Source: Campylobacter showae
Lineage (GTDB): Bacteria; Campylobacterota; Campylobacteria; Campylobacterales; Campylobacteraceae
Length of the DNA stretch: 64,000 nt
Reading direction: 5' to 3'
Assembly (NCBI RefSeq): GCF_900699785.1
Contig: NZ_LR535679.1
Span: 1,488,001 to 1,552,000 of the forward strand
Below the pieces are notes generated by a model. It searched no databases, was not told the origin of the DNA, and saw nothing but the letters and a program-made list of their open reading frames with translations. Positions within the stretch are counted from its first letter, which is position 1, and every line of letters begins with the position of its first letter. Of the stretch, positions 15,380 to 36,516 are shown piece by piece. The position numbers were made by a program, and so were the translations under genes.

Positions 15380-15495
15380 CGGCTGGATTTTAAATAGTTT
15401 TCGGCTAGGATACTCGGGTCACGGACGACCTGTCCGCTCCCGTCGTATCCGCCGCAAACTATTTAAACTACACACAATCCGTCTGGAATATTTCT
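15380..15495. repeat. Large hairpin element (type 1, copy 1)
   Basis: Left arm AAATAGTTTTCGGCTAGGATAC (15392-15413, read here as AAATAGTTT, GGC and GGATAC) pairs with GTATCC, GCC and AAACTATTT (15445-15464). An inner palindrome CGGAC/GTCCG sits in the loop. An outer GGAT/ATCC pair leads into the 3' flank CCGTCTGGAATATTT. The 3' flank and the loop are shared with the copy at 16.9 kb, and the flank with the copy at 36.4 kb. It sits between divergent moeA and yedE; the remaining 290 bases to yedE are AAATTT-rich and hold its promoter region (TAAAAT near 15738). Confidence 0.75.
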
Positions 15496-15789
15496 GCCGA
15501 TTTTACTAAATTTAATCGTAAATTATGCTAATAAAGCATAGAAGTTTAAAAACGCGCGAAGTTTAATATGTATGTGCAAGCCGAGGCAAAGCCGCTCCCG
15601 TCTAAAAAACGTAAATTTGAAAAGCCGAAAATATTAGCCAAACGTGCCGGCTTGGGTAAATTTTAAAATTCGGCCGAAATTTAAAGTTCGCGATTAATCT
15701 CCCGTCAAATTTTATTAATTTTTTATTTTAACATCAGTAAAATACAGCTTAAGAAATCGGGTCGATTTTACCTTTTCAAAGGACACTTC

Positions 15790-16857
15790 ATGAATTTTTC
15801 AAATTCAAAATGGTTTATCGTTTCAGGTGCGGCGCTCGGTGCTTTAGGCGCGCTACTTGTGTATTTCGGCAACCCCGGCAACATGGGCGTTTGCGCGGCT
15901 TGCTTTTTACGCGATACGGCGGGAGCGCTCGGCTTTCACCGCGCAGGAGTCGTGCAGTACGTGCGCCCGGAGATCATCGGGCTCATTTTGGGCGGCTTCT
16001 TAGCTAGCGTGCTTTGGACGAAGGAGTTTAGCGCGACCACGGGCTCGTCGCCTTTCGTGCGCTTTTTTCTAGGATTTTTCGCGATGATCGGCTGCCTCGT
16101 GTTTTTGGGCTGCCCGTGGAGAGCGTTTTTGCGTCTTGGCGGCGGCGATATGACGGCGGTTGCTGGAGTCGTCGGTATTTTTGCGGGCGTGTGCGCGGGC
16201 GTATTTTTCAAAAAGCTTGGCTACGGCCTCACGCACGAGACTAAAACCCAGGCCGCGATAGGCGTTTTGCCGACGGTTATGGGTATTTTGCTGCTTGCGT
16301 CGCTGGCTCTTGGACTGAAGCTTGGCGAAAACGGCGCGCTTTTTAGCTCCGCAAAAGGCCCGGGCTCCATGCATGCTCCTGTCCTGATCTCGCTTGGTTT
16401 TAGCATCGTCGTGGGCGCGCTAATGCACAAAAGCAAATTTTGTAGCGTCGGGGCGTTTGGTAGGCTTTTCAAAAAGGATTTCTCGATGTTTACGGGGATC
16501 ATCAGCATCGTGGTCTTTGCTAGCATCGTAAATTTAGCTCTCGGACAGTATAAATTCGGCTTTGAAGGCCAGCCTATCGCGCACAACGACGTGCTTTGGA
16601 ATTTCCTTAGCATGACGCTAGCAGGGCTTTGCTTTAGCCTGAGCGAAGGCTGCCCGGGCAAACATCTCGTGCAAATGGGCACAGGCAATCTAAGCTCGGT
16701 AATCTTCGTCATCGGTATGGCGGCGGGCGCGGCGGTAGCGCATAACTTCTTGCTTGCCAGCTCTCCGAGCGCCATAACGGCGGCGGCTCCGTGGGCGGTG
16801 GCGATGGGGTTTGTTTTTGCGGTTTATGTGGGATTTTTTCACAAAAAAGCCGCTTGA
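15790..16857 (+). CDS. yedE: YedE-type selenium-metabolism membrane transporter
   Basis: Polytopic membrane protein of the YeeE/YedE family, 355 aa with about ten helices; family members near selenium genes are taken to import or handle a selenium compound. Conserved small-residue and Cys motifs are present: GNMGVCAACFLRDTAG, FLGCPWRAFLRLGGGDM, KFCSVGAFGRLF and SEGCPGKHLVQMGTGN. Each Cys lies near a Gly/Pro turn, as in the thiosulfate-transporting relative YeeE. AAAGGA precedes the ATG. yedF and selD follow about 4 kb downstream, supporting a selenium role. Direct copies of a hairpin element lie on both sides of the gene. Confidence 0.88.
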   Translation: MNFSNSKWFIVSGAALGALGALLVYFGNPGNMGVCAACFLRDTAGALGFHRAGVVQYVRPEIIGLILGGFLASVLWTKEFSATTGSSPFVRFFLGFFAMIGCLVFLGCPWRAFLRLGGGDMTAVAGVVGIFAGVCAGVFFKKLGYGLTHETKTQAAIGVLPTVMGILLLASLALGLKLGENGALFSSAKGPGSMHAPVLISLGFSIVVGALMHKSKFCSVGAFGRLFKKDFSMFTGIISIVVFASIVNLALGQYKFGFEGQPIAHNDVLWNFLSMTLAGLCFSLSEGCPGKHLVQMGTGNLSSVIFVIGMAAGAAVAHNFLLASSPSAITAAAPWAVAMGFVFAVYVGFFHKKAA

Positions 16858-16864
16858 TTTCTCA

Positions 16865-16985
16865 TAAACGACGGATTTTAGAATAGTTTTTCTATACCCG
16901 CTTGGGTTACGGACGACGAGTCTGCGCCCTTGCGGGTAAGAAAAAATTATTTAAACTACGCCTATTCTGTCTTGAATATTTGTCG
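16865..16985. repeat. Large hairpin element (type 1, copy 2)
   Basis: GACGGAT (16870-16876) opens and ATTCTGTC (16964-16971) closes the outer stem. The middle stem is AATAGTTTTTC with GAAAAAATTATT, and the inner stem is TACCCGC with GCGGGTA (16932-16938). The loop shares GGGT-ACGGACGAC with copy 1. It begins right after the yedE stop, so it could also terminate yedE. Same orientation as copies 1 and 3. Confidence 0.75.
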
Positions 16986-17128
16986 TATATCTTAACTAAA
17001 TTTGTAAATTTGACATTTTCGCGGTGCGGGTCTGGGCGAGCGAAAGACGAAATGTTGAATTTTAAAATTTGATTTATATAAAAAGCGAGCTGGAATTTGC
17101 AAAATTTTGATAGCGATCGGGAGTAAAA

Positions 17129-17157
17129 GCGGGCTAAAACGTCATGGTCTAGCCCGC
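17129..17157 (-). terminator. Terminator for moaD-moaE
   Basis: Perfect 8-bp stem GCGGGCTA (17129-17136) with TAGCCCGC (17150-17157). Read on the minus strand it is followed by TTTTACT, giving the T run expected of an intrinsic terminator for the minus-strand moaE. Confidence 0.65.
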
Positions 17158-17194
17158 AAGAAATAAAGCTTTTATCTAAAAAGCTGTCAAATTT

Positions 17195-17220
17195 GCTCGG
17201 CGCGTATATTAAAGCCGAGC
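17195..17220 (-). terminator. Second hairpin just after moaE
   Basis: Perfect 7-bp stem GCTCGGC (17195-17201) with GCCGAGC (17214-17220), 9 bases beyond the moaE stop codon on the minus strand. No strong T run; it probably acts together with the hairpin at 17129. Confidence 0.5.
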
Positions 17221-17229
17221 CGAGTAAAT

Positions 17230-17664
17230 TTAGCCTAAAAGTCCGGCGCCTTTGATCGCTTGGCTGCGCTCTTTTGCATAGATGCGCTCGCCTCCTATGA
17301 CGTCGTATTTCCAGATCGGCGCGTTAGCCTTAAAGTCCTCTACAAACTCGTTTATCAGCCGCAAGGCGACCTTTCTTTGCGGGCTTACCACGCCTGCGAC
17401 GTAGGAGCTCTCGTGCACCGGCACGTCGCCTCGCGAATGCGCAAAAAGCACGTATGCGCCCAGATCCTTCGCCTTTTGCTCCCAGCCCGCTAGCCATTTG
17501 CGCAGGATCGGCTCGTAGATGTCAAAGCTAAGCGCGCTTATGCCGCCTTCCTCGCGCACGATGCCCGTAAACGTGATGAGAGCGCCGCAGTTTTTGTCCT
17601 TAAACTCGTCGTACCAGGCGTTTGTGATCGCCTTGGCGTCTAGGCTTCCTTCAAAAATCTGCAT
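17230..17664 (-). CDS. moaE: Molybdopterin synthase catalytic subunit MoaE
   Basis: Large subunit of molybdopterin synthase, 144 aa; with thiocarboxylated MoaD it adds two sulfurs to precursor Z. Family features: CGALITFTGIVREEGG near the start, LSFDIYEPI, VLFAHSRGDVPVHESSYVAGVVSPQR, and Lys-containing APIWKYDVIGGERIYAKE at the active site. Only one base separates it from moaD upstream, so they form a two-gene operon in the order moaD-moaE. Two hairpins after the stop probably end the transcript. Confidence 0.95.
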   Translation of the reverse strand: MQIFEGSLDAKAITNAWYDEFKDKNCGALITFTGIVREEGGISALSFDIYEPILRKWLAGWEQKAKDLGAYVLFAHSRGDVPVHESSYVAGVVSPQRKVALRLINEFVEDFKANAPIWKYDVIGGERIYAKERSQAIKGAGLLG

Positions 17665-17665
17665 A

Positions 17666-17887
17666 TTAACCTCCGCAAACCGGCGGTAAAATGGAAATTT
17701 TATCCCCGTCTTTTAGCGGCGCGTCAAGAGAGCTTGCGATCTCGTCGTTTACGGCGACGGCGCAGATTTTTAGCCACTCGCCGAGCTGCGCGTATTCGCC
17801 CAGTTTTTCTTTTACTTCGCTTAAATTTGCCGCTTCTAGCTTTAAATTATGCATCTTTATCGGGCCTAAAAACTCGATTTCTACCAT
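17666..17887 (-). CDS. moaD: Molybdopterin synthase sulfur carrier subunit MoaD
   Basis: Ubiquitin-like sulfur carrier, 73 aa, ending in the obligatory Gly-Gly (ILPPVCGG) that is adenylated and thiocarboxylated by MoeB/ThiF-type enzymes. A beta-grasp pattern is visible: VEIEFLGPIKMHNLKLE, a central helix with LGEYAQLGEWL, AVNDEI, and KDGDKISILPP. It is the first gene of the moaDE pair, divergent from nspC with about 90 bases between them. The size matches the family. Confidence 0.93.
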   Translation of the reverse strand: MVEIEFLGPIKMHNLKLEAANLSEVKEKLGEYAQLGEWLKICAVAVNDEIASSLDAPLKDGDKISILPPVCGG

Positions 17888-17978
17888 AAATTCGCCTTTG
17901 AAATTAAATTTTTTTCTTGATTTTACTTAAAAAAATATTTAGATATACTTACGCCAAATTTTTAACGAAAGAGCCGTA

Positions 17979-19118
17979 ATGAACGAAATATTAAGCAAAA
18001 TAAAAACGCCCGCCTACGTCTGCGAAGAGGCCAAGGTGCGCAAAAATCTTGAAATTCTAAAACGCGTCAAGGATGAAAGCGGCGCGAAAGTGCTAGTCGC
18101 CCTAAAAGGCTTTGCATTTAGCGGCGTGATGGGGCTTGTCGGCGAATACCTAGACGGCGCGACATGCAGCGGCCTGCACGAGGCTAAATTTGCCGCAAAA
18201 TACGCTCGAGGCGAGATTCATACGTATTCGCCCGCATTTAAAGACGAGGACATAGATGAGGTGCTAGCGCTCTCAAAGCACGTGGTTTTTAACTCCTTTG
18301 CGCAGTGGGCGAAATTTAAGCAAAAAGCCCTAGCCGCGGGCGTTACCTGCGGACTTCGCGTAAATCCGGAGCTCTCCGTCGCGCCGACTGACGCTTATAA
18401 CCCGTGCGGCAGGTATAGCCGCCTGGGCATCACTCGCGCAAATTTTGACGAAGACGCGCTTGATGGCATCACGGGACTGCATTTTCACGCGCTTTGCGAG
18501 GAGAGCGCGCAGAGTCTAGAGACCGTGCTGATGGCGTTTGAGGAGAAATTCGGCGAGTTTATCCTGCGCATGAAGTGGGTAAATTTCGGCGGCGGACATC
18601 ACGTGACAAAAGAGGGCTACGACGTGGATCTGCTCATAAATTTGATCAAAAACTTCCGCGCAAAATACGGCGTCGAGGTCTACATAGAGCCCGGCGAAGC
18701 GGTGGGCTGGCAGACGGGATTTTTAGCCGCTTCGGTGCTTGATTTCGTACAAAACGAAAAAACCATAGCCATCCTAGACGTCTCGGCCGAGGCGCATATG
18801 CCAGACACCGTGCTGATGCCCTACCGACCGGCGGTGCGAGGTGAGAGTAAGGGCGGTAAATTTATCTACCGTTTGGGCGGAAATACTTGTCTAGCGGGCG
18901 ATATCGTGGGGCTTGACGCGGGCGAACCGGAGTATAAATTTGACGCGCCGCTAAGCGTGGGCGATAAGGTGATATTTGAGGATCAGATCCACTACACGAT
19001 CGTGAAAAATACGACCTTTAACGGCATAAAGCTGCCTGATTTACTGCTTTTAAAAGAAAACGGCGTGCTTGTAACCGTGCGGGAATTCGGCTTTGAAGAG
19101 TACGAGAGGCGAAACTAA
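17979..19118 (+). CDS. nspC: Carboxynorspermidine/carboxyspermidine decarboxylase NspC
   Basis: PLP-dependent decarboxylase of the alanine-racemase fold; it converts carboxyspermidine to spermidine, completing the pathway begun by the dehydrogenase at 6752-7963. 379 aa. The PLP lysine lies in VLVALKGFAFSGVMGL (about residue 43). Other blocks are GATCSGLHEAKFAAKY, GLRVNPELSV, GLHFHALCE, WVNFGGGHHV and the catalytic EPGEAVGWQTGFL. A TATACT -10-like box lies near 17943, with GAAAGAGCC before ATG. The two pathway genes are 10 kb apart on opposite strands, not an operon. Confidence 0.93.
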   Translation: MNEILSKIKTPAYVCEEAKVRKNLEILKRVKDESGAKVLVALKGFAFSGVMGLVGEYLDGATCSGLHEAKFAAKYARGEIHTYSPAFKDEDIDEVLALSKHVVFNSFAQWAKFKQKALAAGVTCGLRVNPELSVAPTDAYNPCGRYSRLGITRANFDEDALDGITGLHFHALCEESAQSLETVLMAFEEKFGEFILRMKWVNFGGGHHVTKEGYDVDLLINLIKNFRAKYGVEVYIEPGEAVGWQTGFLAASVLDFVQNEKTIAILDVSAEAHMPDTVLMPYRPAVRGESKGGKFIYRLGGNTCLAGDIVGLDAGEPEYKFDAPLSVGDKVIFEDQIHYTIVKNTTFNGIKLPDLLLLKENGVLVTVREFGFEEYERRN

Positions 19119-19515
19119 ATTTGACGCCAGGAGCCGTGCCCTTTAGGGTGTAAATTTGGCATTTTGAGGCGCCGTTTTTGGCGATAAATTTAATCAAATT
19201 TTGCGGCGATCTTTTATTTGGCTTGCGCCTCGCGTGCGGGCTTGCTAAACCTGCACCTTTTTAGCGCTAAATTTAAAATTTGTATTATCGCTTGCCAAAT
19301 TTGTCGCAAATTTAATCCCAAACGAAGTTAAATTTAAGATAAATAAAATCTAGCTTATATAAATGAATTAATATAGCGGATTATAAATTTGACCCAGATT
19401 TTGATAAAAACGCGCCATAACCGCCCAAAAAAGCGATGTTTCGGCGCTAAGCTTGCATTACGTTATTTTTTGATATAATTTCACGAAAATCCGCGAAAAT
19501 TTAGCCTTTGGCTGG
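19119..19515. other. Intergenic region between nspC and fdhC, promoter at its end
   Basis: About 450 bases from the nspC stop to the fdhC start. It is AAATTT-rich and AT-rich near 19320-19400. No gene is convincing. Where the formate dehydrogenase catalytic genes would lie in many relatives there is nothing coding. In the fdhC leader a short open frame reads FSLWLDADHDELFKAENK and ends in TAG two bases before the fdhC ATG, but it lacks a start. Confidence 0.5.
19474..19479 (+). promoter_or_regulatory. Candidate -10 box for fdhC
   Basis: A perfect TATAAT after a TTATTTTTTG run, 90 bases before the fdhC ATG. It implies an untranslated leader of about 80 bases. Confidence 0.55.
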
Positions 19516-19569
19516 ATGCCGACCACGACGAGCTTTTTAAGGCGGAAAACAAAACCAAAGGGAGATAGC

Positions 19570-20517
19570 ATGACGAGAATTTTTAGTTTGCTTTCGGTTT
19601 TCGCCTGTTGGGCCTTCGCTATCGAGGCGAGTCCCAGCACGAACCAGTACCAGAGCAATATCTGGGCTGCTGGTAGAATCGAAAACATTAAGCCTTACGA
19701 AGACGGTTTGGGGCCGATTTTCACGTTTATTCAGGGCAACGACTACTTCGCGATAGCGGCTTTGTCGCTTATTTTGGCTGTTATCGGCGCGTTCGTTCTG
19801 CACTTTTTGATCATCGGACCGAAACACTTCAGCCACGACGGCAAAAAAGTCTATGCGTTTAATATGATAGAGCGCGTATCTCACGGCGCTGCGGCGATCG
19901 CATGGATAGTGCTCATACCGACTGGCGTCATCATGATGTGGGGCGCTGAGCTTGGCGGCGGCGCGTTTGTTAGATTTTGCAAGGACATCCACGGACTGGC
20001 TACTATTTTGTTTGCCGTTTCGGTGCCTCCGATGCTGATAGCTTGGACCGTGAGGATGCTGCCCGCGGTTTATGATATCAGATGGATGCTGATCGTCGGC
20101 GGATATCTCTCAAAGGTTAAACGTCCCGTACCTGCTGGCAAATTTAATGCCGGTCAAAAGGCGTGGTACTGGGTAGCTATCCCTGGCGGTATCGTGATGA
20201 TACTAACCGGCGCAGCTATGTTTTTCCTTGACTTTAGAACCCCTGACGTTGCAAGCTGGCTAGGCGTATCTCAGATCGAAGTTTTAAGAGCTTCTGCACT
20301 AGTTCATAACGTTCTCGGTATCGTTTGCGCAGTATTTTTCCTAGTACACATCTATATGGCGGCTATCGCGATACACGGCGCTATCTGGTCGATGATAACT
20401 GGCTACAAAGAAGAAGAAGAGGTTTACGTACTTCACCACTACTGGTATCAAGAGCTTATCTCTAAAAACAAAATCCCGGTATCTGAATACGAAAAAACTT
20501 ATCCAAAATTAAAATAA
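19570..20517 (+). CDS. fdhC: Formate dehydrogenase cytochrome b subunit FdhC (gamma)
   Basis: Membrane cytochrome b that takes electrons from the periplasmic formate dehydrogenase to quinone, 315 aa. The N-terminal signal-like helix is MTRIFSLLSVFACWAFA. Four membrane helices then carry the family's haem ligands, e.g. His in NMIERVSHGAAAIAW, in KDIHGLATILF, and in LVHNVLGIVCAVFFLVHIYMAAIAIHGA. I chose ATG 19570 because AAAGGGAG precedes it; an in-frame ATG at 19516 has no such site. The catalytic selenoprotein and iron-sulfur subunits are not in the window, unusual for this gene. Tandem terminators follow. Confidence 0.88.
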   Translation: MTRIFSLLSVFACWAFAIEASPSTNQYQSNIWAAGRIENIKPYEDGLGPIFTFIQGNDYFAIAALSLILAVIGAFVLHFLIIGPKHFSHDGKKVYAFNMIERVSHGAAAIAWIVLIPTGVIMMWGAELGGGAFVRFCKDIHGLATILFAVSVPPMLIAWTVRMLPAVYDIRWMLIVGGYLSKVKRPVPAGKFNAGQKAWYWVAIPGGIVMILTGAAMFFLDFRTPDVASWLGVSQIEVLRASALVHNVLGIVCAVFFLVHIYMAAIAIHGAIWSMITGYKEEEEVYVLHHYWYQELISKNKIPVSEYEKTYPKLK

Positions 20518-20578
20518 TAAAAAAGGAGAAATTTTTCTCCTTTTTACCTCAGAGGCGAGCCTGCAAGCCTCTTTTTTA
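20517..20578 (+). terminator. Tandem rho-independent terminators after fdhC
   Basis: The first hairpin pairs AAAAAGGAGAAA with TTTCTCCTTTTT, starting at the stop codon. The second pairs AGAGGC (20551-20556) with GCCTCT (20567-20572) and is followed by six T. They separate fdhC from yedF. Confidence 0.85.
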
Positions 20579-20653
20579 TACGAAATTTAAAATCTTTTAG
20601 ATAAAATTCCCACTAGACTTCAGGTTGAAGAGTAATAAATTTAAGGAAAAATC

Positions 20654-21250
20654 ATGCAAATCGATTGTAGAAATTTAGCTTGCCCTGAGCCGGTCATCAG
20701 AACTAAAAACGCGCTTGAAGGCTTAAAAAACGGCGAAAAGCTTGAGATTTTAGTAAATTCCATCGCTCCTAAAGAAAATATCAGCCGCTTTTTAAAAAAC
20801 CAAAACGTCGAATTTAGCGTTGAGCAAAACGGCGCCGAGACAAAAATCACCGCCGTTAAAGGCGAATCCAAACTTGAGCTAACGAATTTTGACGAATTTG
20901 TCTGTGAAATCACGCCAAAAACCAAAAAAACGGTCGTTTATTTAAACGAAGAATACGCCGGAAGCGGCGACGTGGGCGTTAGCTTGCTGGCTAAATTTCT
21001 AGGCGCGCTTTTGCAGGTGGAAAAACCGGAGTACGTCATTTGCGTAAATAACGCCGTCAAAATGACGACGAACCGCGCTCATCCTAGCTTTAAACCGCTT
21101 AAAGATTTAGAAGCTGCGGGCGTCAAAATTTTAAGTTGCGGCAGCTGCCTAGAGGCGTATAAACTCGTAAGCGACCTAAGCGTCGGCGAGATGTCAAACG
21201 CCTACGAAGTCATGCAAATTTTAACTACGCACGAGCAAATCAAACTATGA
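20654..21250 (+). CDS. yedF: Sulfurtransferase-like selenium metabolism protein YedF
   Basis: 198 aa in two parts. The first 75 residues are a TusA/SirA-like domain with the CPxP sulfur-carrier motif (DCRNLACPEPVIRTKNAL). The rest is a DsrE-like domain with GSGDVGVSLLAKFLGALL and a second conserved Cys pair in GVKILSCGSCLEAY. This fusion is the YedF selenium protein found next to selD, thought to deliver selenium (as a persulfide-like form) to selenophosphate synthetase. Its stop overlaps the selD ATG as ATGA, so the two are translationally coupled. A TAAAAT -10-like box is near 20600. Confidence 0.93.
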   Translation: MQIDCRNLACPEPVIRTKNALEGLKNGEKLEILVNSIAPKENISRFLKNQNVEFSVEQNGAETKITAVKGESKLELTNFDEFVCEITPKTKKTVVYLNEEYAGSGDVGVSLLAKFLGALLQVEKPEYVICVNNAVKMTTNRAHPSFKPLKDLEAAGVKILSCGSCLEAYKLVSDLSVGEMSNAYEVMQILTTHEQIKL

Positions 21251-22269
21251 TTTACAACGACAAACGTCTCACGAAATTCGTCCGAGCGGCGGGTTGAGCA
21301 GCCAAGCTTGACCCGTCGGGTCTAAACAAAACTATCGGCGATTTAAATTTAGCTCACCCAAATTTGCTCTCAAACATCGGCACAAACGAGGACGCGAGCG
21401 TCTTTAAGATCACGGACGACATTGCGCTCGTGCAGACGCTTGACTTTATCACGCCGGTGGCGGACGATCCGTTTATATTCGGTCAGATAGCGGCTGCAAA
21501 CAGCCTAAGCGACGTGTTTGCGATGGGCGGCAAGGTGCTAAACGCGCTAAATATCGTCGGTTTTGACAGTTGTAACCTAAACGGCGAAATTTTGGGCGAA
21601 ATTTTGCGCGGCGGACAGGATAAAGTCGCCGAGTGCGGTGGCGTGATCGTGGGCGGACACACGATAGAGACGCAGCAGATGTATTACGGCCTTAGCGTCA
21701 CGGGCGTCGTTTCGCCAAACTCCTTTTGGTCAAACAACGCCGCGCGAGAGGGCGATGCGCTCATACTTACAAAGCCGTTAGGAACGGGCATTTTAAGCAC
21801 GGCGATCAAGGCTGATTTGCTAAATTTGACCCAAATCGAGCAGGCCGTCGAGACGATGCGGCAGCTAAATTTCTATGCCGTGGATGTGCTAAAAGGCGTA
21901 AACGTAACGGCGGCGACCGACGTTACGGGGTTTGGATTTTTAGGACATTTAAGCGAAATGCTAAATGATAAAATCAGCTTTGAAATTTACCCTGATAACA
22001 TGCCCGTGATAGCAGCCGCGCGCGAGTTTGCCGATATGGGCATCATCCCCGAGGGTAGCTACAAAAACCGCGAATTTGCGTCCAAATTCGTTAGCGGCGA
22101 CGCTGATATCTTGCTTTACGACGCGCAGACTTCGGGCGGACTTTTGCTAGCCGTGCCGCAAAGCGAGGCAAATTTGGCTCTATCTCGTCTAAAAGAGGCT
22201 GGTTACGAGAGCTCGGCGGTCGTCGGCGTAGCTAAAAAACGCGGCGAATACGGCATAAATTTACGCTAG
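21247..22269 (+). CDS. selD: Selenide water dikinase SelD, selenocysteine-containing
   Basis: Makes selenophosphate from selenide and ATP, the selenium donor for Sec-tRNA. Read from ATG 21247 with the TGA at 21295-21297 taken as selenocysteine, the product is 340 aa, the normal family length. Codon 17 falls exactly where SelD has its catalytic Cys/Sec (AAG-U-AAKLDP; the Lys after it is also conserved). Downstream blocks fit: TDDIALVQTLDFITPV, AANSLSDVFAMGG, GGVIVGGHTIE, ATDVTGFGFLGHL, AQTSGGLLLAV. Annotation pipelines that treat TGA as stop would call a truncated gene from about 21364. It overlaps yedF by 4 bases. Confidence 0.95.
21295..21322 (+). promoter_or_regulatory. Selenocysteine UGA with downstream SECIS-like hairpin
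   Basis: TGA at 21295-21297 is followed, after 12 bases, by GACCC (21310-21314), the loop GTC, and GGGTC (21318-21322). This is a perfect 5-bp stem with GU in the loop, the base pair contacted by SelB in known bacterial SECIS elements. The spacing is about that of E. coli fdhF. tRNA-Sec is present in the same window. Confidence 0.85.
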
Positions 22270-22718
22270 GCGGCTTTAAATTTAAGCTTGCGAGCTTGGC
22301 GTAAATTTGACGGTCGTAAATTTGGTCAAATTTGAGATGGTTTAAAATCATCCGAAACGGCGGTCAAAAACAGCAAGCCTAATCAAATTTATTTGCTAAA
22401 ATCACTAAGCCGCCAAGTTCTCTAAATGTAAATTTAGTCAAATTTGAGGCGTTAAAATCCGAAAAGCCAAAATTCTTAAAAATAAAATTTAGTAAAATCT
22501 TGCAAAATAAAATCATAAATTTACAGCTAAGCTCGCCCTTAAAATTTGCAAATTTTACTATTTTATCGCGAGTTAAACTCGTCAAATTTCTAAAAATATC
22601 TCCCCAAATTTTAGAGCAATCTGCAATGTATTATCAAAAATATCTCAAGATTTAAGCAAGAATATAAAAGAATTAAATTAAAATCACAATCTAATATTAG
22701 TGAAATAAAGGAGACAAA
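22270..22718. other. Intergenic region, 449 bases, AAATTT-rich, no gene seen
   Basis: Follows selD and precedes dba. It contains two perfect TCAAATTTGA palindromes (near 22333 and 22437). A 68-codon minus-strand frame at 22379-22585 has no ribosome-binding site and looks like chance. The last 60 bases are AT-rich with a TAATATTAG box near 22690, likely the dba promoter. Confidence 0.6.
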
Positions 22719-22886
22719 ATGGAATTTTTATCGTTTCTCTTTCTGGCTATAGCCGTTTTTATAGCTTGGAAAAAGCCTGAAAAAGAGGGCTTAGCGTTTG
22801 GCGCATTTGCCGTGGGGACGGCGATTTGCTTTATCATGTTTTTCATCGCCAGCTGGACGTCCCTGCTGCCTTACGCGGCGTACTAG
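22719..22886 (+). CDS. dba: Dba, small membrane accessory protein of DsbI
   Basis: 55 aa, beginning MEFLSFLFLAIAVFIAWKKP and ending WTSLLPYAAY, with two hydrophobic helices around a short KKPEKEG loop. AAGGAG lies 5 bases before the ATG. Its stop is 9 bases before dsbI. In C. jejuni a small protein gene, dba, precedes dsbI in the same arrangement and is needed for DsbI production or function. I identify it from position, size and topology. It is short enough to be missed by gene callers. Confidence 0.8.
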   Translation: MEFLSFLFLAIAVFIAWKKPEKEGLAFGAFAVGTAICFIMFFIASWTSLLPYAAY

Positions 22887-22895
22887 GAGGGGCGG

Positions 22896-24443: not shown

Positions 24444-24560
24444 ATTTAGCCCAAACCAGCGCAAATCCGTCCGCTTTGCGCGGGCGAATTTTGATTGTTT
24501 ATATTTAAAGTCAGCCTTTTGTGCTGGCTACTAAATTTCTTTTAATTTACCTAACCGCTC

Positions 24561-24566: not shown

Positions 24567-24592
24567 TTCAAAAATTTAACAAAGGAGATATG

Positions 24593-28244: not shown

Positions 28245-28266
28245 ATCCCGCCTAAATTTTTGCGTA

Positions 28267-28272
28267 ATTATA
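28267..28272 (-). promoter_or_regulatory. Candidate -10 box for patA-patB
   Basis: A perfect TATAAT on the minus strand, 23 bases before the patA ATG, flanked by an A/T run. The leader would be short. Confidence 0.45.
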
Positions 28273-28461
28273 TAAAAAAATTATTTTGGGTTAGGTTAAA
28301 TTTACGTTTGACGGGAATTTAAAATTTGACTTGCGGTTTTGCTTGGACGGGTTTTAAATTCGGCGTCAAATTTGGGGCTTAAATCTGAGTTCAAACGGCT
28401 CAAATTCGCGTCCAAATTTGAGCCCTAAATCTCTCGCCCTCTTGCGTAAAATCAGCCAAAT

Positions 28462-28929: not shown

Positions 28930-29600
28930 TGCGTCCTCTTTGCGTGTGAATTGTTGAAAAAATAGACTAAAAATAGCACCGCAAAGCTTATAAACAGCAT
29001 AATCGCCGAATAAACGTGCGCCTTTGTATAATCCATGAGCTCGACGGCCTCGTAGATAGCGATGCTAGCGACCTTAGTTTTGTCCCCCACGCTGCCGCCT
29101 ATCATCAGCACGACGCCAAACTCGCCCAAGGTATGCGCAAAACTCACTATGAGCGCGGTTAGAAGCGATGGTTTGATGTTTGGCAGAGCGACTCTAAAAA
29201 GCGTCTCCCATTTGCCTTTGCCCAGCGAGTAGCTCGCCTCAAAAAGGCTCTTCGGTAGGCTAGCAAATCCCGCCTGAAGCGGCTGAAACATAAAAGGCAG
29301 CGAGTAAATACAGCTAGCGATGATGAGGCCTGAAAAGTTAAAAACCAAGCGGATATCAAAGGTTTCCTCGAAAAATTTGCCCAAAAAGTTGTAAGGTGAG
29401 AGAAAAACAAGCAGGTAAAATCCAAGCACCGAAGGAGGTAGCACGAGAGGCAGCGAGATCACGGCCTCGAGCACGGGTTTAAATTTAAAACTCGCTCGGC
29501 TAAGCCAAAACGCAACCGGCAGCATGAGAAAAAACAGGATCGCAGTCGAAATAAAAGCAAGCTTTAGCGAGAGGTAAAAGGGCGTAAAATCGATATTCAT
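28926..29600 (-). CDS. modB: Molybdate ABC transporter permease ModB
   Basis: Inner-membrane channel of the molybdate importer, 224 aa with five or six helices. The ABC EAA loop is seen in SLGKGKWETLFRVALPNIKPSL. Other ModB landmarks are ISLPLVLPPSVLGFYLLV and SFAHTLGEFGVVLMIGGSVGDKTKVASIAIYEAVE. It overlaps modC upstream by 4 bases (ATGA-type coupling) and the peroxiredoxin gene downstream by 4 bases. Confidence 0.94.
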   Translation of the reverse strand: MNIDFTPFYLSLKLAFISTAILFFLMLPVAFWLSRASFKFKPVLEAVISLPLVLPPSVLGFYLLVFLSPYNFLGKFFEETFDIRLVFNFSGLIIASCIYSLPFMFQPLQAGFASLPKSLFEASYSLGKGKWETLFRVALPNIKPSLLTALIVSFAHTLGEFGVVLMIGGSVGDKTKVASIAIYEAVELMDYTKAHVYSAIMLFISFAVLFLVYFFNNSHAKRTQ

Positions 29601-30541
29601 TTTGGCTCGCTTTGCGCGTAAATCTCGGCGTTTCGCTCGTCAAATTTGCCTGATTTCGCACCGTAAAATTCGTTGTTTTCGCTACCGTTTTTTTGTAAAT
29701 TTAGCCCAAACGCCTTGGCGCTTATCGACGCTTCGTCGCCCGGTTTTAAATTTGCGGCTTCCGCGGCGCTTAGCGCTACTTCGCAAAGCTGCTGACCTAC
29801 GGAGACGACGGCTACGTAGATGGCGTCGCGTTTTGAGATTTCTAAAATTTTTGCCGGCAGGCTAAATTTCTGCGAGCCTCTGTGCCTCAAAAATATCTCG
29901 CCCGGGCCGCCTTCTTGCGCTATTTTGCCGTTTTCGAGCACGAAGACTTTGGACGCGAGTTTGTAGATCTCCGCGACGTCGTGGCTAACCAAAATCGTCG
30001 TCATATCAAACTCGGCGTGCACCTTAGCAAGGTAGTCTTGCAGCTTTTCGCGCATGGCGTTATCAAGCGCGGAGAGCGGCTCGTCGAGGAGTAAAATTTC
30101 TGGCTTTCGCATGAGAGCGCGGGCTAGGGCGGCGCGCTGCTTTTGACCGCCGGAGAGCTGCGAGATAGCGGCGTTTTCTAGCGAGCTCATCTCGACAAGA
30201 CCCAGCAGTTTGCGGGCTAAATTTACGTCGTTATTTGCAAAAAGCAGGTTTTTCATCACGTTCATATTCGGAAAAAGCGCGTAGTCTTGAAATAAAAACC
30301 CGATATTTCGGCTTTGGGGCGGTGTTAAGTTTTTGCCGTCAAATAGCGTCCGTCCGCCTGCTTTTATCGTTCCGCTATCAGGCGTTTCAAAGCCCGCGAT
30401 TAGGCGCAAAAGCGTCGTTTTGCCGCTACCGCTTTTGCCGTAGAGAGCGACGAATTCGCCCTTTTTTACGTTCAAATTTACGTCTAAATCAAATTTTCCG
30501 TTCGCGCCGTTTAGGCTTTTTATGCAGTTTAGTTCTATCAT
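29597..30541 (-). CDS. modC: Molybdate ABC transporter ATPase ModC
   Basis: 314 aa ATPase. Walker A GKSGSGKTTLLRLIAG lies near residue 35, the Q loop in IGFLFQDYALFPNM, the signature ISQLSGGQKQRAALARAL, Walker B ILLLDEPLSALD, and the H loop in TILVSHDVAEIY. After residue 225 comes a TOBE/Mop-like domain (RDAIYVAVVSVGQQLCEVALSAAEAANLKPGD), typical of ModC and related anion importers. The last 25 residues are variable. Coupled by short overlaps to the di-Mop gene and to modB. Confidence 0.94.
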   Translation of the reverse strand: MIELNCIKSLNGANGKFDLDVNLNVKKGEFVALYGKSGSGKTTLLRLIAGFETPDSGTIKAGGRTLFDGKNLTPPQSRNIGFLFQDYALFPNMNVMKNLLFANNDVNLARKLLGLVEMSSLENAAISQLSGGQKQRAALARALMRKPEILLLDEPLSALDNAMREKLQDYLAKVHAEFDMTTILVSHDVAEIYKLASKVFVLENGKIAQEGGPGEIFLRHRGSQKFSLPAKILEISKRDAIYVAVVSVGQQLCEVALSAAEAANLKPGDEASISAKAFGLNLQKNGSENNEFYGAKSGKFDERNAEIYAQSEPK

Positions 30542-30918
30542 GCGATGCAGAGCGAGGTTGCCTTGACGTAGGCGTAAATTTGATCGCCGAGCGCTAAATT
30601 TAGCCGCTTTAGCGATGCCGTGGAGATGATGCTTTCAAACTCAAACTCGCCCGCGTTTAGATGCAGCGAGCTTGTGATTTGTCCTTTTTGGATGTCTGAA
30701 ATTCGCGCTTTTATCTCGTTTGAAACAGAGCAGTTTAAAAGCGGGGAAGTAGCGACGAAGACGTCCGAGCTTTTAAAGCTTAGTCGAACCTCGTCGCCGA
30801 TTTTTAAATTTTGCAGATTTTCCAAGGATAGCATTTTTAGGCTCAAATTTTCGGCGCTAAACTCAAAAACACTAACGCCGTCATTTTGCTCTATCGCCGA
30901 AATTTTAGCCTTTATCAT
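30538..30918 (-). CDS. Di-Mop (TOBE-domain) molybdate-binding protein
   Basis: 126 aa made of two Mop/TOBE repeats (about residues 1-60 and 65-126), each with the pattern short strand, SLENLQNLKIGDEVRLSFKSSDVFVA or SLKRLNLALGDQIYAYVKATSLCIA. Mop proteins bind molybdate or tungstate in the cytoplasm and buffer it. A separate di-Mop gene inside a mod operon, in addition to the di-Mop region of ModE and the TOBE of ModC, is less common. Its ATG directly follows the modA stop, and it overlaps modC by 4 bases. Confidence 0.85.
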   Translation of the reverse strand: MIKAKISAIEQNDGVSVFEFSAENLSLKMLSLENLQNLKIGDEVRLSFKSSDVFVATSPLLNCSVSNEIKARISDIQKGQITSSLHLNAGEFEFESIISTASLKRLNLALGDQIYAYVKATSLCIA

Positions 30919-31665
30919 TTAGATGTTGTATCCGAATTTTCTAAAGATTTCCTTCGCGCGGTCGCTTCTGATGAAGTCGTAGAAAGCTTTTGCTTCAGGA
31001 TTGTTTTCGCCGTGTTTTAGGATAACCATGCCTTGGTCGATCGGAGTGTAAAGCGCAGGATCGATGAGGATAAAGTTTTTACCCTCTTTGTACTCGGCCA
31101 TTTTTTTATCATGCATTGCAGAAGCCGCGATAAATCCGACGTCAGCAGCGCTTAGAGCTTGGCTTAGAGCTTCGCCGATAGATTTTGCTAGGATGACGTT
31201 TTTCTCGACTTTATCATAGATGCCCGCTTTTTTTAGAGCTTCGATGCTAGCCTTACCGTACGGAGCGGTTTCAGGATTTGCGATCGCAATGGCTTTTAGG
31301 CCTTCTACCGCGTTTATGCCCTTAGCTAGATCGATATCTCTGATCGTAAATAGAGCAAGCGCGCCCTGGGCGTATACTACGGGCTGGGTTACGGCAAATT
31401 TGGTGTCGTATAGATCCTGGACGAATTTCATATTTGCAGCCATGAAAACGTCGGCAGGAGCGCCGTTTTTGACCTGGGTAGATAGCGCGCCGCTAGCTCC
31501 TAGAGTGACGGTTACTTTGGTATCGGGGTTTGATTTAGCAAACTCCGCTTTTAGCTCGTCAAACGCGTAAGTGACGTTTGCTGCGGCAAATACGTTGATC
31601 TCACCCGCGTTTAGATGAAAAGCCGCGAGAGCCGCGACGACTAACGAAAAAAATGTTTTTTTCAT
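30919..31665 (-). CDS. modA: Molybdate-binding periplasmic protein ModA
   Basis: 248 aa with a Sec signal (MKKTFFSLVVAALAAFHLNA) and a mature part starting GEINVFAAANVTYAFDELK. Substrate-loop motifs include TVTLGASGALSTQVKNGAPADVFMAA (Ser and Ala contacts) and IAIANPETAPYGKASIEALKKAG, with VDVG-like DVGFIAASA. These match ModA/WtpA-type tetrahedral oxyanion binders; molybdate versus tungstate cannot be told. It is the second gene of the operon, after the damaged modE, which ends 3 bases upstream. Confidence 0.93.
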   Translation of the reverse strand: MKKTFFSLVVAALAAFHLNAGEINVFAAANVTYAFDELKAEFAKSNPDTKVTVTLGASGALSTQVKNGAPADVFMAANMKFVQDLYDTKFAVTQPVVYAQGALALFTIRDIDLAKGINAVEGLKAIAIANPETAPYGKASIEALKKAGIYDKVEKNVILAKSIGEALSQALSAADVGFIAASAMHDKKMAEYKEGKNFILIDPALYTPIDQGMVILKHGENNPEAKAFYDFIRSDRAKEIFRKFGYNI

Positions 31666-31667
31666 TT

Positions 31668-32449
31668 TTATACTCCTATTATGATTTGACTTGCTTTGAT
31701 TATAGCGGTGAGCTCGTCGCCCACGCCGATGCGCATTTGCATCGCGCTTTCTTTGGTGATGATAGAGGTTATCGTCTGATGATTGCTGATTTCTAGTACG
31801 ATTTCGGCGTTTACGGAGCCGATTTTAGCCTCGATAACGCGTCCTTTTAGTAAATTTGCCGCGCTTAGTTTTAGATTTTCCTCTTTTGCGAGCATTACGC
31901 TTGGGGCTTTAAAGATAAATACAACCTTTTTGCCGACTTTTAAATTTAGATTTTTTTCAGACTCGACCGTGACGTTAGCACGTAAAATTTCGCCGTTTGA
32001 GAGTTTGGCGCTGATTTGCGAATTTACCGCGCCCGTTTTTACGTCCGTGATCTCGCAGCTTAGTTGATTTCGCGCGCTTAGACTCATGCTCATGCGCTGT
32101 AAATTTAAAATTTCGTTCGTATCGACGTTTATATTTGAACAAACTTTTTCTAAAAATATCTTTTGGCTCTCTAGCATCGCGTCGTATAGCGCGATCATCT
32201 TTTTGCCGTATGGCGTGAGCTCCGAGCCGCTGTTTTTCTTGTTGCCTTCGGCTCTTGCGATTAGCGTTCGTCCGAGCGGTTATTTAGCGCGTCCAGGCTA
32301 TCCCATGCGTTTTTGTACGAGATGCCGACGTACTCGGCGGCTTTGGTTATGCTTTTGGTGTGTTCTACGGCCTTTAAAAGCTCTATATGTTTAGCCAACA
32401 CCGATACGCCGCTATCTAAAAATAGCTCTAAACTAACGTCTGCTTTCAT
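31668..32449 (-). pseudogene. modE: ModE molybdate-responsive regulator, split by a one-base frameshift
   Basis: The N-terminal part (32261-32449) is the ModE winged-helix DNA-binding domain: ELLKAVEHTKSITKAAEYVGISYKNAWDSLDALNN. It runs into a stop after RSDER. The other frame continues from LIARAEGNKKNSGSELTPYGKKM into 176 residues with two Mop repeats, the ModE effector domain. Adding one base (C on the coding strand) near 32265-32267 turns GAA-CGC-TAA into GAA-CCG-CTA-ATC, i.e. E-P-L-I-A-R, which is the family sequence. So either ModE is inactivated and the mod operon is deregulated, or there is a sequencing error. A start inside the second frame would give an effector domain without DNA binding. 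Confidence 0.9.
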
Positions 32450-32632
32450 GAAAATCCCCCAAATTCTATCAATATAAAAAAATAATTTGCTAGAAAGTAT
32501 ATTTAAATATATATGAAAAATAACTTAAAGAAACTTCGTAATACCTGGCATTTTGAAATTTATAAATTTAAAAGCTACATTGAGATAAAATCTCAGGTTA
32601 CTGCCTTTGCAGACTTGAAATTCGGAGATTTG

Positions 32633-33334
32633 ATGAGAAAATTTTTACTCTCTTTTTTGCTTTTTTTTAGTTGCGTTTTTGCTGAACAAACGCAAGAAAA
32701 GAGCGAATTTGACGACGAATTTACCCAGCCTAGCGAGATTTTCGATCCGCTTAGCGGCTATAATAGAATGATGACGGGGTTTAACGATTTTATGTACGTA
32801 AACGCCATCCACCCCGCGATAAAAGGCTATAACTACATAGTGCCCGAGGCCGCAAGAACCGCTGCTGGAAACTTTTTTGACAACCTTTTATATCCCGTTC
32901 GCTTCGTAAATAATCTCTTGCAGTTTAAATTTAGCGAGGCTGGGGAGGAGACGCTGAGATTTTTGGCAAATACGATTATCGGTTTTGGCGGGCTAACCGA
33001 CGGCGCGAAATACTACAATCTGCAACGCCACGACGAGGACTTCGGTCAGACGCTAGGCTACTGGGGCGTAGGTAGCGGATTTCACGTGGTGCTGCCGTTT
33101 ATCGGACCGTCAAATTTACGCGATATCGTCGGTCTAGTCGGCGATTATTATCTCGATCCTATCAGTTACGTAAAGCCTGCGCTAGACTCCTTTGCTATAA
33201 AAACATTCCGTCAGGGCAATCTTTTGTCCTTACACCCAGACGCTTACGACAAGCTTAAAAAAGACGCGATCGACCTGTATCCGTTTCTACGAGATGCCTA
33301 CGAACAGCGCCGCAACCACTTAATAAAGGAATAA
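32633..33334 (+). CDS. mlaA: MlaA/VacJ-type outer-membrane lipid transport protein
   Basis: 233 aa from ATG 32633, chosen because GGAG is 6 bases upstream and a signal peptide (MRKFLLSFLLFFSCVFA) follows at once; the frame is open further back without a signal. MlaA hallmarks: FDPLSGYNRMMTGFNDFMY, PEAARTAAGNFFDNLLYPVRFVNNLLQFKF, FGGLTDGAKYYNLQRHDEDFGQTLGYWGVGSGFHVVLPF and RDIVGLVGDYYLDP. MlaA removes misplaced phospholipids from the outer leaflet. A Cys in the signal is not in a clear lipobox. First gene of a three-gene operon with an MlaC-like protein and an RND permease. Confidence 0.9.
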   Translation: MRKFLLSFLLFFSCVFAEQTQEKSEFDDEFTQPSEIFDPLSGYNRMMTGFNDFMYVNAIHPAIKGYNYIVPEAARTAAGNFFDNLLYPVRFVNNLLQFKFSEAGEETLRFLANTIIGFGGLTDGAKYYNLQRHDEDFGQTLGYWGVGSGFHVVLPFIGPSNLRDIVGLVGDYYLDPISYVKPALDSFAIKTFRQGNLLSLHPDAYDKLKKDAIDLYPFLRDAYEQRRNHLIKE

Positions 33335-33335
33335 A

Positions 33336-33923
33336 ATGAAATTTTTAAAAATCATCCTACTTGCGCTTTTTAGCGCGGTTAGCCTCTTTGCGATCAGCGA
33401 GGAGCAGATAAAACCTACGATGCAAAAAACGACGCAAGACGCCATCGAAGTGCTAAAAAACGCAAATTTGAGCAAAGACGAGAAAATAAGTAAAATTTTC
33501 GCCGTTTTTGATCCGTATTTCGACTACGAGCAGATGTCAAAGATCGCTCTAAACAAGCGCTACAATAACCTAAGCGCCGATCAAAAGGTCAAATTTAACA
33601 AAGCTTTTGAAGAGAGATTAAAGTCAAGCTACGTCGATAAGCTTTTAAGCTACAAAAACCAAACTATAAATTTTAAAGACGTAACAAAACCGAACGAAAA
33701 TCGCTACTTTCTAAACGCAGATTTAGTCGGTGAGGACGGCAAAAACTACGGCTTTACGTACAAATTTTATAACGCCAAAGAGCGCGGCTGGCTCATCTAC
33801 GACGTCGAAATTTTAGGCGTTAGCATTATCCAGACCTACCGCAGCCAGTTTGACAGCCTTATGGAAAACGAGAGTTTTGAAAATTTGCTTAGCAAGCTAA
33901 ACTCCGTCCAAGCTCCGCAATAA
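33336..33923 (+). CDS. mlaC: MlaC/HpnM-type periplasmic lipid carrier
   Basis: 195 aa of the Tgt2/MlaC family. A Sec signal (MKFLKIILLALFSAVSLFA) precedes a mature protein with KISKIFAVFDPYFDYEQMSKIALNKRYNNL, KVKFNKAFEERLKSSYVDKLLSYKNQ, GFTYKFYNAKERGWLIYDVEILGVSIIQTYRSQF. The last motif is the family signature. It ferries lipids between membranes. It starts 2 bases after mlaA and is followed 8 bases later by the RND gene, a grouping that also resembles hopanoid transport pairs HpnM/HpnN. Confidence 0.9.
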   Translation: MKFLKIILLALFSAVSLFAISEEQIKPTMQKTTQDAIEVLKNANLSKDEKISKIFAVFDPYFDYEQMSKIALNKRYNNLSADQKVKFNKAFEERLKSSYVDKLLSYKNQTINFKDVTKPNENRYFLNADLVGEDGKNYGFTYKFYNAKERGWLIYDVEILGVSIIQTYRSQFDSLMENESFENLLSKLNSVQAPQ

Positions 33924-33930
33924 GGCGCTG

Positions 33931-36390
33931 ATGAAGCGGATTTTTAAATTTATCGTCAACTTTCCAAAAATCGTTATCGCGGGCGTGCTAGCCGCGACGC
34001 TATTTTTTGGATATTTTAGCGGCAAGCTCGAGGTGGACGCGTCTACCGAGACGCTGCTACTTGAAAACGATAAAGATCTAGCCGTCTTTAGAGACGTTTT
34101 TAAACGCTACGTTAGCCCAAACTACCTAGTCATCGCATACACGCCAAAAGACGATCTGCTCGCGCCCTCTACGCTTGAAAAGATAGAAAATTTAAGCCGC
34201 GAACTTGAAAAGAACGAGCTTGTTTCAAACGTCATTTCGGTACTGAACATCCCGCTGCTTCAAAGCGGAACTAACGATCTTGGCGAGTTGGTTAAGCACG
34301 TACCAAGCCTTATCGATGCCGATATAAACAAAACCTTGGTGCGACGCGAGTTCGCGGATAGTCCGCTATATACGAACAACCTCGTTAGTCGCGATCTAAA
34401 AACTACGGCAATCGTGCTAAATTTAAAGACCGACGAAAAGTATCAAAGCATACTAAACGAGCGAAACGCTCTGCTAAACGCCAAGCTTGACGGCAACATC
34501 ACAAGCGAGCAAAAACAGCGTCTAAGCGCCGTAAATGCGCAGTTTAAGGCTCACCGCGACGAAGCGCGTATAAAAGAGCACGCAGCGATCGAGCAGATCC
34601 GCGAGACGATAGCGAAATTCGGCGGAGGCGAGAGTCTGTTTTTAGGCGGGGCAAATATGATCGCCGATGATATGGTGAGCTTCGTGCGCTCGGATCTTGC
34701 GACCTACGGCATCAGCGTGACGTTGCTTTTGATCTTTTGTCTTTGGCTGTTTTTTAGACAGATTCGCCACATCGTTATGCCGATTTTTATCTGCGTGATT
34801 AGCGTTATTTGGGCGAGCGGACTGTTTGGGTTTTTCGGTTGGGAGATCACGGTGATTAGCTCAAACTACATCGCCCTTCAGCTCATCATCACCATCTCCG
34901 TCGTCATTCACCTGATCGTGAGCTACCGCGAGTTTTGCATCACAAAGCCGCATCTTAGCAACCGTCAGCTAGTCTATCTCACGCTGCGCGATAAGGCCAG
35001 TCCGTCGTTTTTTGCGATATTTACGACCGTTATCGGCTTTTTGTCGCTTGCGCTTTCCGATATCAAGCCTATCATAATGCTAGGCATCATGATGAGCGCG
35101 TCGATCTCTATCTCGCTAGCGCTCGCGTTTTTGCTATTTGGCTCCGCGATGGCGCTGATGCCAAAGCTCGCTCCCGTTAGGACGTTTGAGGATAAATTTA
35201 GCTTTACCAAGCACTGCGCCACGTTTGCGCTAAATCATAGCCGCGCCGTTTATGCCATTAGCCTTGCGGTGCTTATTTTCGGGCTTTACGGCATCTCAAA
35301 GCTAAAAGTCGAAAACAGCTTTATAAGCTATTTTAAAGATACGACCGAAATCCACAAAGGCATGCAGGTGATCGATACGAAGCTGGGCGGCACGGTGCCG
35401 GTCGATATATTGATCAAATTTAACAAGCCTAAATTTGAGCAAAGCGCGGCCAAAAACGAGCCTAAAGACGAATTTGACGACGAATTTGCCGCTAGCGCGA
35501 ACGAGGATAAGTATTGGTTTAATCAGCATAAAATCGACGTCGCGAAAAAGGTGCATAACTATCTAGAAAATAAGCGCTTCGTCGGGCACGCCAGCAGCCT
35601 AAACACCGTCGTAAAGATCGTCGAGCGCATCACGCAAAAGCCCGCCGACGGCCTCATGCTCTCGATCCTATACGAACAGATCCCGCAAAAATACAAAGAC
35701 ATCATCCTAAGCCCATACGTAAGCATAAAAGATAACGAGCTTCGATTTACCGCGCGAACTCTTGATAGCGACGACGCGCTACGCAGGGACGAGTTTTTGC
35801 GCGAGCTTAGAACCGATATCGCAAATTTGATCGCAAACGACAACGCTAGCGTGCAAGTTAGCGGCGCGATGGTGCTTTATAACAATCTCCTTCAAAGCCT
35901 CATCGCCTCGCAGGTGGATTCTTTTGGTTTCGTGATCTTGTCGCTTTTTATCGTTTTTTGCATTATTTTTAAAAGCATTAAGCTTGCCGCCATCGCCATC
36001 ACGTCAAATTTGATCCCGCTTTGCGCGGTATTTGGCGTCATGGGCGTGATGGGTATCCCGCTTGATATCATGAGCATTACGATAGCGGCTATCAGCATAG
36101 GCATCGGCGTGGACGACATCATCCACTACATCCACCGCCTAAAAATCGAGCTTCGTGGCAAAAACGTCGCCGAGTCGATCAAGGCCTCGCACGCAAGCAT
36201 CGGCTACGCGATGTACTACACCTCGTTTGCGATCATCCTGGGCTTTAGCATAATGGTGACTAGCAACTTTATCCCGACGATATATTTCGGACTTTTGACC
36301 GATCTTGTTATGATAATGATGTTGCTGGGAGCGCTGGTGCTGCTGCCGACGCTAATCAAAACCTTTTACCGGCCTAGAATTCCCCGCTGA
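33931..36390 (+). CDS. RND/MMPL-family membrane transporter (HpnN-like)
   Basis: 819 aa. A helix at residues 9-28 is followed by a periplasmic domain (about 30-245), a block of five helices (about 250-400), a second periplasmic domain after SLKVEN-type start (about 455-640), and another five-helix block to the C terminus. GD-containing helix motifs are weak, but ITIAAISIGIGVDDIIHYIHRL (Asp pair in helix) is the proton-relay segment of MMPL/HpnN proteins. The operon with MlaA and MlaC-like genes suggests lipid movement rather than drug efflux. C. jejuni has the same trio (Cj1371-Cj1373). Confidence 0.85.
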   Translation: MKRIFKFIVNFPKIVIAGVLAATLFFGYFSGKLEVDASTETLLLENDKDLAVFRDVFKRYVSPNYLVIAYTPKDDLLAPSTLEKIENLSRELEKNELVSNVISVLNIPLLQSGTNDLGELVKHVPSLIDADINKTLVRREFADSPLYTNNLVSRDLKTTAIVLNLKTDEKYQSILNERNALLNAKLDGNITSEQKQRLSAVNAQFKAHRDEARIKEHAAIEQIRETIAKFGGGESLFLGGANMIADDMVSFVRSDLATYGISVTLLLIFCLWLFFRQIRHIVMPIFICVISVIWASGLFGFFGWEITVISSNYIALQLIITISVVIHLIVSYREFCITKPHLSNRQLVYLTLRDKASPSFFAIFTTVIGFLSLALSDIKPIIMLGIMMSASISISLALAFLLFGSAMALMPKLAPVRTFEDKFSFTKHCATFALNHSRAVYAISLAVLIFGLYGISKLKVENSFISYFKDTTEIHKGMQVIDTKLGGTVPVDILIKFNKPKFEQSAAKNEPKDEFDDEFAASANEDKYWFNQHKIDVAKKVHNYLENKRFVGHASSLNTVVKIVERITQKPADGLMLSILYEQIPQKYKDIILSPYVSIKDNELRFTARTLDSDDALRRDEFLRELRTDIANLIANDNASVQVSGAMVLYNNLLQSLIASQVDSFGFVILSLFIVFCIIFKSIKLAAIAITSNLIPLCAVFGVMGVMGIPLDIMSITIAAISIGIGVDDIIHYIHRLKIELRGKNVAESIKASHASIGYAMYYTSFAIILGFSIMVTSNFIPTIYFGLLTDLVMIMMLLGALVLLPTLIKTFYRPRIPR

Positions 36391-36399
36391 TTCCCCGTA

Positions 36400-36516
36400 A
36401 ACGACGGATTTCTAATAATTTTTGGCTAGGGTGCTCAATCATGTATTTTATATACACTCATATCGCACCCGCCAAAAATTATTAAAACTACGCCTATTCC
36501 GTCTGGAATATTTGTC
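36400..36516. repeat. Large hairpin element (type 1, copy 3)
   Basis: GACGGAT (36403-36409) and ATTCCGTC (36496-36503) close the outer stem. AATAATTTTTGGC pairs with GCCAAAAATTATT, and GGGTGC (36429-36434) with GCACCC (36465-36470). The 3' flank ACTACGCCTATTC-GTCT-GAATATTTGTC is almost identical to copy 2. The loop is AT-rich and different from copies 1 and 2. It follows the RND gene stop by 13 bases, between convergent genes, so it may terminate both. Confidence 0.75.

Follow-up and report, generated by a model that had tools for sequence, protein, structure and literature searches.

The window, the 64,000-nt stretch of Campylobacter showae DNA analyzed here, carries three copies of a dispersed hairpin element and a diverged fourth one (Table 1). 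The sequence-only reading had reported the three copies, and they are real: the stems it quoted, the flanks and the loop common to copies 1 and 2 are all present in the sequence. The true limits are wider than those first given, with lengths of 127–128 nt, and the reading had missed both the fourth element and the fact that the constrained fold lies on the opposite strand. Element 2 sits directly on the TGA of a gene of the sulphur-transport family (yedE-like; 15790–16857, plus strand) and element 3 on that of an MMPL-family gene (33931–36390, plus strand). In both, the stop codon shares its A with the left end of the ATTCCCC kind, which reads ATTCCCC in copies 1 and 3 and ATTTCTC in copy 2; the right ends of all three are GTCTKGAATATTT. 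Element 1 departs from the usual position behind a stop codon and lies in a gene leader, the 3' end of its minus-strand fold falling 13–15 nt ahead of the start codon of moeA (14157–15353, minus strand). The fourth element follows directly on the stop codon of a saccharopine-dehydrogenase-like gene (6752–7963, minus strand), and its arms resemble those of 20 other loci in the genus. A selenocysteine tRNA gene (37314–37408), the only match at gathering score in an Rfam scan of the window, lies 0.8 kb past copy 3, and the yedE-like transporter gene precedes copy 2; a selenocysteine link was dropped because copies elsewhere have unrelated neighbors.

Table 1. Elements in the window and their variable hairpins.
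Feature	Coordinates	Strand of fold	Remarks
Diverged fourth element	6619..6752	plus	subfamily II arms; R3 match, E 9.9e-6
Element 1	15369..15496	minus (constrained fold)	site S1, hairpin type A
Variable hairpin of element 1	15390..15470 (approximate)	minus	core within two substitutions of the ERIC core pattern
Element 2	16857..16984	minus	site S2, hairpin type D
Variable hairpin of element 2	16880..16954 (approximate)	minus	
Element 3	36390..36516	minus	site S3
Variable hairpin of element 3	36412..36486 (approximate)	minus	different tip

All three copies fold far better than shuffled sequences (z = -5.63, -6.05 and -6.06 for copies 1, 2 and 3; 0 of 200 shuffles as good in each case), as tested on stretches slightly shorter than the true limits. 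Elements 1 and 3 fold better on the minus strand than on the gene-sense strand; against the family trend, element 2 folds better on the plus strand (-40.1 vs. -33.6 on the minus strand). A covariance model built from 19 copies (R1) scored the three at E = 9.8e-21, 1.4e-20 and 1.9e-20, all three being members of its training set, and returned one other match in the window, at E = 5.3.

Anatomy was determined from an alignment of 63 copies, read on the minus-type strand. From 111 elements, 12 truncated or rearranged ones were removed; 64 of the remaining 99 passed an 88% identity filter and one aberrant copy was left out. Mutual information, computed with no structure assumed, recovered a short inner helix along with the long and tip stems. 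In the RNAalifold structure, 84.5% of cells pair, compared with 51.1% and 48.4% when the partners are slid by one base, and the covariation score is 0.564 against 0.202 and 0.189 (0 of 500 shuffles as high), a comparison that favors the structure over its slid versions, as it was derived from the same 63 sequences. The count of pairs that change on both sides (35 of 41) says little, since shuffles give nearly as many (mean 32.6; 54 of 500 reach 35). The element is a rod with conserved ends, made of a terminal stem (four to five pairs in most copies), small conserved loops, a long stem with almost no fixed letters, a conserved collar and a short tip, and its pairing is constrained on one strand. 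Of the side boxes described below, the window's subfamily has only an AGGCGTAG-like one. The compensatory change proposed in the sequence-only reading holds pair by pair in the wider family; among the three window copies, whole hairpin types differ, not single compensated pairs.

Were both strands equally constrained, G-T and A-C mismatches would be equally frequent among broken pairs. On the gene-sense strand of the 111 elements, single stem mismatches were 9 G-T against 74 A-C, or 9 against 54 when counted by distinct context (100 contexts of all mismatch kinds); here, as in the sets below, copies are not independent. An A-C on the gene-sense strand is a G-T on the other, so the other strand is the constrained fold. 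The same bias was found, on the folded strand, in 21 distant elements (52 G-T vs. 1 A-C; 40 vs. 1 by context), in 30 loci retrieved with a sequence pattern (61 vs. 3) and in 14 ERIC-type copies from E. coli and from IMG/VR records with unchecked hosts (8 vs. 1). For the distant sets the search model or pattern was that of the folded strand, which somewhat favors the bias, whereas the 111 elements were mostly found with a model of the opposite strand. A protein-binding cruciform, one of the three readings first offered, would constrain both strands alike and is disfavored by so strand-specific a bias. Between orthologous copies of the same hairpin type (23 pairs, not independent), Watson-Crick pairs were exchanged with G-U in 42 cases and with A-C in 17, and seven double changes were compensated; taking one pair per site, G-U was favored 25 to 12 (hand count). 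Constraint in place exists, and it is weaker than in the standing collection of copies.

Seven sites, three of them in the window, are common to sister species. Their left flanks are 81–98% identical in all 54 orthologous pairs, and the hairpin falls below 70% identity in 33 of these, some of which involve truncated, interrupted or badly delimited copies; restricted to intact copies, 17 of 38 pairs are swapped (hand count). Conversely, 11 pairs of hairpins at different sites are at least 95% identical, with flank identities of 15–58%. Empty sites in sister strains had been suggested as a check: at S4–S6 in five close genomes we found no clean empty site from which a target duplication could be read. 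S4 went undetected in G006, S6 is reduced to a remnant in G059, and the S5 copies of G001, G006 and G059 are altered or decayed. Over the 330 nt read at S4 and S5 in G021, a more distant genome, no element could be seen. Insertion thus looks old, and exchange and decay recent. At S2 in three genomes (L064 in G022, L065 in G006 and L062 in G059), a second dispersed repeat, GC-rich (CTTCGCGCAAAGCGCTCGTTACGAG...), separates the left end from the hairpin.

In a covariance-model search of related genomes, another check suggested from the sequence, R1 gave matches in 10 of the 48 genomes searched in the window's genus: seven copies in G022, six each in G001 and G006, five each in G059 and G060, four in G021, and one each in G004, G012, G015 and G017. 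In a neighboring genus, copies occur in 9 of 14 genomes, with 22 in G252, 19 in G343 and 12 in G345. BLAST with copy 3 against 41 related genomes matched five, one of which (G033) was dropped for lack of an element at the locus; a pattern match in Poseidonibacter (L059) was dropped for lack of an R1 match. A Campylobacter model, R2, matched 18 of 398 Campylobacterales genomes. Many R2 loci have the collar GGAGC-tip-GTGAC, and loci lie at the stop codons of rplS, fusA, purB, ilvC and others (names assigned by eye from translations). A third model, R3, built from 14 Campylobacterales copies picked by eye for the core and a CAAGG box, matched at least 40 of the 48 genus genomes, with a highest count of at least 17 copies. 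The 20 R3 loci of the genus that were read by eye all have similar arms, with GGAGC and GTGAC in 13 and a variant in seven. R3 matches recur in threes with equal scores in G004, G021 and G024, and with equal spacing too in G004 and G021, as if tied to a three-copy locus such as the rRNA operon. In the assembly of C. showae CC57C, the element lies no more than 200 bases from a contig end on six contigs (L053–L058), and short-read assemblies of this species therefore probably break at the repeat.

The folded strand is antisense to the adjoining gene, and placement is mostly just behind stop codons: 76 of the 111 elements begin no more than 40 nt from the stop codon of a gene that points toward them, 16 lie within the same distance of a diverging gene's start codon, 17 are at a greater distance and two have no called gene on that side (open frames of at least 70 codons, orthologs counted separately). 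In G252 the figure is 21 of 22, with 11 elements on each chromosome strand (hand count; origin not located). Of its 21 host genes, 20 were scanned and 19 had a Pfam family, with no best family recurring; they include DNA polymerase A, DnaB, RNase HII, ThyX, the small chain of RNR and BipA. In G252 and G343, convergent genes enclose elements arranged as inverted, tail-to-tail pairs; such pairs are also present in G340, G341 and G346, with the second element standing before a gene start. At one further locus (L166, 2311–3054), three tandem elements follow an apparent cytochrome c gene. Relatives are also found in phage-like surroundings. In G336 (L172, G336:C1:657000-676900), five to six elements, some with the outer stem AGATTTT/AAAATCT, lie between gene blocks of a Mu-like prophage (tape measure, major head, portal, terminase, DNA transposition protein); in G345 two lie between apparent tail genes (by eye), and one IMG/VR record holds six elements at E up to 0.005 in 35.9 kb. 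A prophage stretch had no match in a phage collection. In viral scans, three patterns matched no contig and one matched two stretches of a single contig; the ERIC core pattern matched 34 stretches, several of them in seemingly coding or unrelated sequence.

Strand bias and placement would both suit antisense small RNA genes kept by selection, whose transcript from the folded strand acts on or protects the 3' end of the neighboring gene. The seven compensated double changes between orthologous copies also speak for such genes, as do a promoter-like match (15550–15522, minus strand) just upstream of the folded strand of copy 1 and V_AS5 (RF02818), a family typed as antisense that scores below its cut-off on the folded strand of E. 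coli ERIC. However, sigma-70 promoter-like matches are as frequent in shuffled sequence (2 vs. 1.9; 0 vs. 0.6), a -10-like stretch that is promising in two clades is not kept in others (by eye), copies at S5 and S6 have decayed in sister species, and the host genes are unrelated. We regard small RNA genes as a possible but rather doubtful reading. The position right behind stop codons, in gene orientation, would also suit intrinsic terminators or 3'-end stabilizers of the upstream gene, and one small terminator-like match (15374–15386) lies inside copy 1. Yet the main hairpins of the three copies gave no match to a GC stem followed by a T run, terminator-like matches numbered 7 against 3.9 expected (SD 2.1) in 15300–17100 and 0 against 0.4 in 36300–36700, and the A-C mismatches fall on the mRNA strand, the wrong strand for this role, which makes it improbable.

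Two recombination-based readings fare worse. The geometry of a hairpin behind a stop codon, folded on one strand and with a variable center, is that of attC-like sites of a putative integron, and tandem copies occur in G345:C14. The neighbors, however, are unrelated core genes in an order conserved across species, for which integron-like gene cassettes were rejected, and the attC core sequence was not seen in the conserved ends; this reading is very unlikely. Least credible are REPIN-type elements moved by a RAYT (Y1) transposase: REPINs too show compensatory changes in the hairpin spacer (excerpts of PMC3116915), but Y1_Tnp (PF01797) had no match in any of the 48 genus genomes in a search within the genus, a control set being positive in 5 of 14, so that a strict REP/RAYT origin, as first suggested, is largely refuted for this genus.

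The reading that fits best connects these elements to the enterobacterial repeat ERIC. The pattern GGAGCKTACN{2,9}GTAMGTGAC, present in 33 of 398 Campylobacterales genomes and 13 of 87 genera (reversed control, 0), constitutes the ERIC core; an excerpt of PMC3696847 prints both primers for ERIC. A query made of the ERIC core hits 5375 of 5426 E. coli genomes, at a median of 6 places. Among 30 pattern loci of Campylobacterales, AAGGCR lies upstream in 11 (shuffles: mean 1.1, maximum 5), AACGCM downstream in six (mean 1.0, maximum 4) and both in five (mean 0.05, maximum 2), figures that flatter the link, as the boxes were picked post hoc; similar positions in E. coli ERIC hold AAGGCGA and AACGCAG. 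Judged by these motifs, the bridging subfamily combines the core of ERIC (GGAGC-tip-GTGAC) with its two side boxes. R3 was run on 14 of the 36 ERIC-type loci available and matched every one, the E. coli pair at E = 4e-6 and 1.9e-5 and the other twelve at 3.3e-16 to 0.025, part of this score being built in by the choice of R3 copies for ERIC-type features. It also matched nine of nine distant loci and five of eight subfamily I loci (L099, 1.8e-6; L091, 4.7e-5). With E up to 10, it gave two matches in the whole 64-kb window, the fourth element and copy 3 (0.0026), which argues against a model that takes any hairpin.

Copies 1 and 2 of the window gave no R3 match at E up to 10. R2 matched two of 13 Arcobacter-type loci below 1e-3 (L213, 1.4e-5; L216, 1.1e-4) and none of 12 ERIC-type loci, and even with E allowed up to 10 it did not hit the E. 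coli pair. The link from the window copies to ERIC is therefore transitive: the three copies appear tied to ERIC through intermediates, and may or may not be ERIC in the strict sense. The hairpin core of element 1, on its minus strand, corresponds to the ERIC core pattern within two substitutions, the only such copy in the window.

We conclude that the elements are probably ERIC-like, non-autonomous, MITE-type interspersed repeats of about 128 bp in Campylobacterales, and we have fair confidence that they work like ERIC. The MITE-like option was thus the best fitting of the three first offered, with structure kept on one strand, and the statement that no known feature type explains the elements was too strong: ERIC does, with differences. 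They occupy old fixed sites with hairpin types that differ between sister species, and have relatives between Mu-like prophage genes. The elements would have spread long ago and would now mainly exchange hairpins by short conversion tracts between copies. Their fold may be checked chiefly when a single strand of one polarity, RNA or single-stranded DNA, is copied, and more weakly in place; we infer checking at copying from the constraint in place being weaker than in the standing collection. A broader proposal is tentative, and we would not call it probable: ERIC may be part of an ancient, one-strand-folded superfamily of at least two phyla, copied via an RNA or single-stranded DNA intermediate of fixed polarity that rewrites hairpins at old sites behind stop codons, with selection keeping the intermediate, not the chromosomal copy, foldable. 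A second phylum with diverged stems brings the comparative power that the near-identical enterobacterial copies lack, and the Campylobacterales copies reveal the folded strand, the fixed loops and the positions of copies. What copies ERIC, and as which molecule, becomes testable. ERIC-PCR typing of Arcobacter and Campylobacter may also be affected.

Among known systems, REP/REPIN elements are likewise small palindromic repeats with compensated spacer stems (excerpts of PMC3116915); the Campylobacter elements differ in being longer, in having the ERIC core and in lacking a Y1 transposase match in the 48 genus genomes. No Rfam family matched the element loci tested at its cut-off. V_AS5 (Vibrio RNA AS5) matches E. 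coli ERIC over its whole length at 46.4 bits, below the cut-off of 96, and did not match the Campylobacterales loci tested. In excerpts of the literature, ERIC is described as a 127-bp repeat, known since 1990–91, that is co-transcribed with its neighbors in Yersinia, affects the stability of the upstream transcript depending on orientation, and has a 7-bp terminal inverted repeat, TA ends and a target duplication (PMC2229807); its range is given as Enterobacteriaceae and Vibrionaceae (PMC10969869), and no mover is named in the excerpts of either paper. Among the titles and abstract openings searched, several of them from papers on ERIC-PCR of Arcobacter and few from subscription journals, none reported genuine ERIC in this phylum. 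The elements described here share with ERIC/IRU a length of about 127 bp, a long imperfect palindrome, dispersed multi-copy occurrence between genes, the G-T bias on the same strand and, in the bridging subfamily, the core GGAGC-tip-GTGAC and the AAGGCG and AACGC side boxes. They differ in host (Campylobacterales, against the two families named in PMC10969869), which is a matter of range and not of anatomy, in their stems of nearly free sequence, in a terminal stem of ATTCC/GGAAT or AGATTTT/AAAATCT, and in stricter placement, the 3' end of the fold lying within 40 nt of the stop codon of the facing gene in 23 of the 29 Campylobacterales pattern loci where a gene was called there, compared with 6 of 16 ERIC-type loci.
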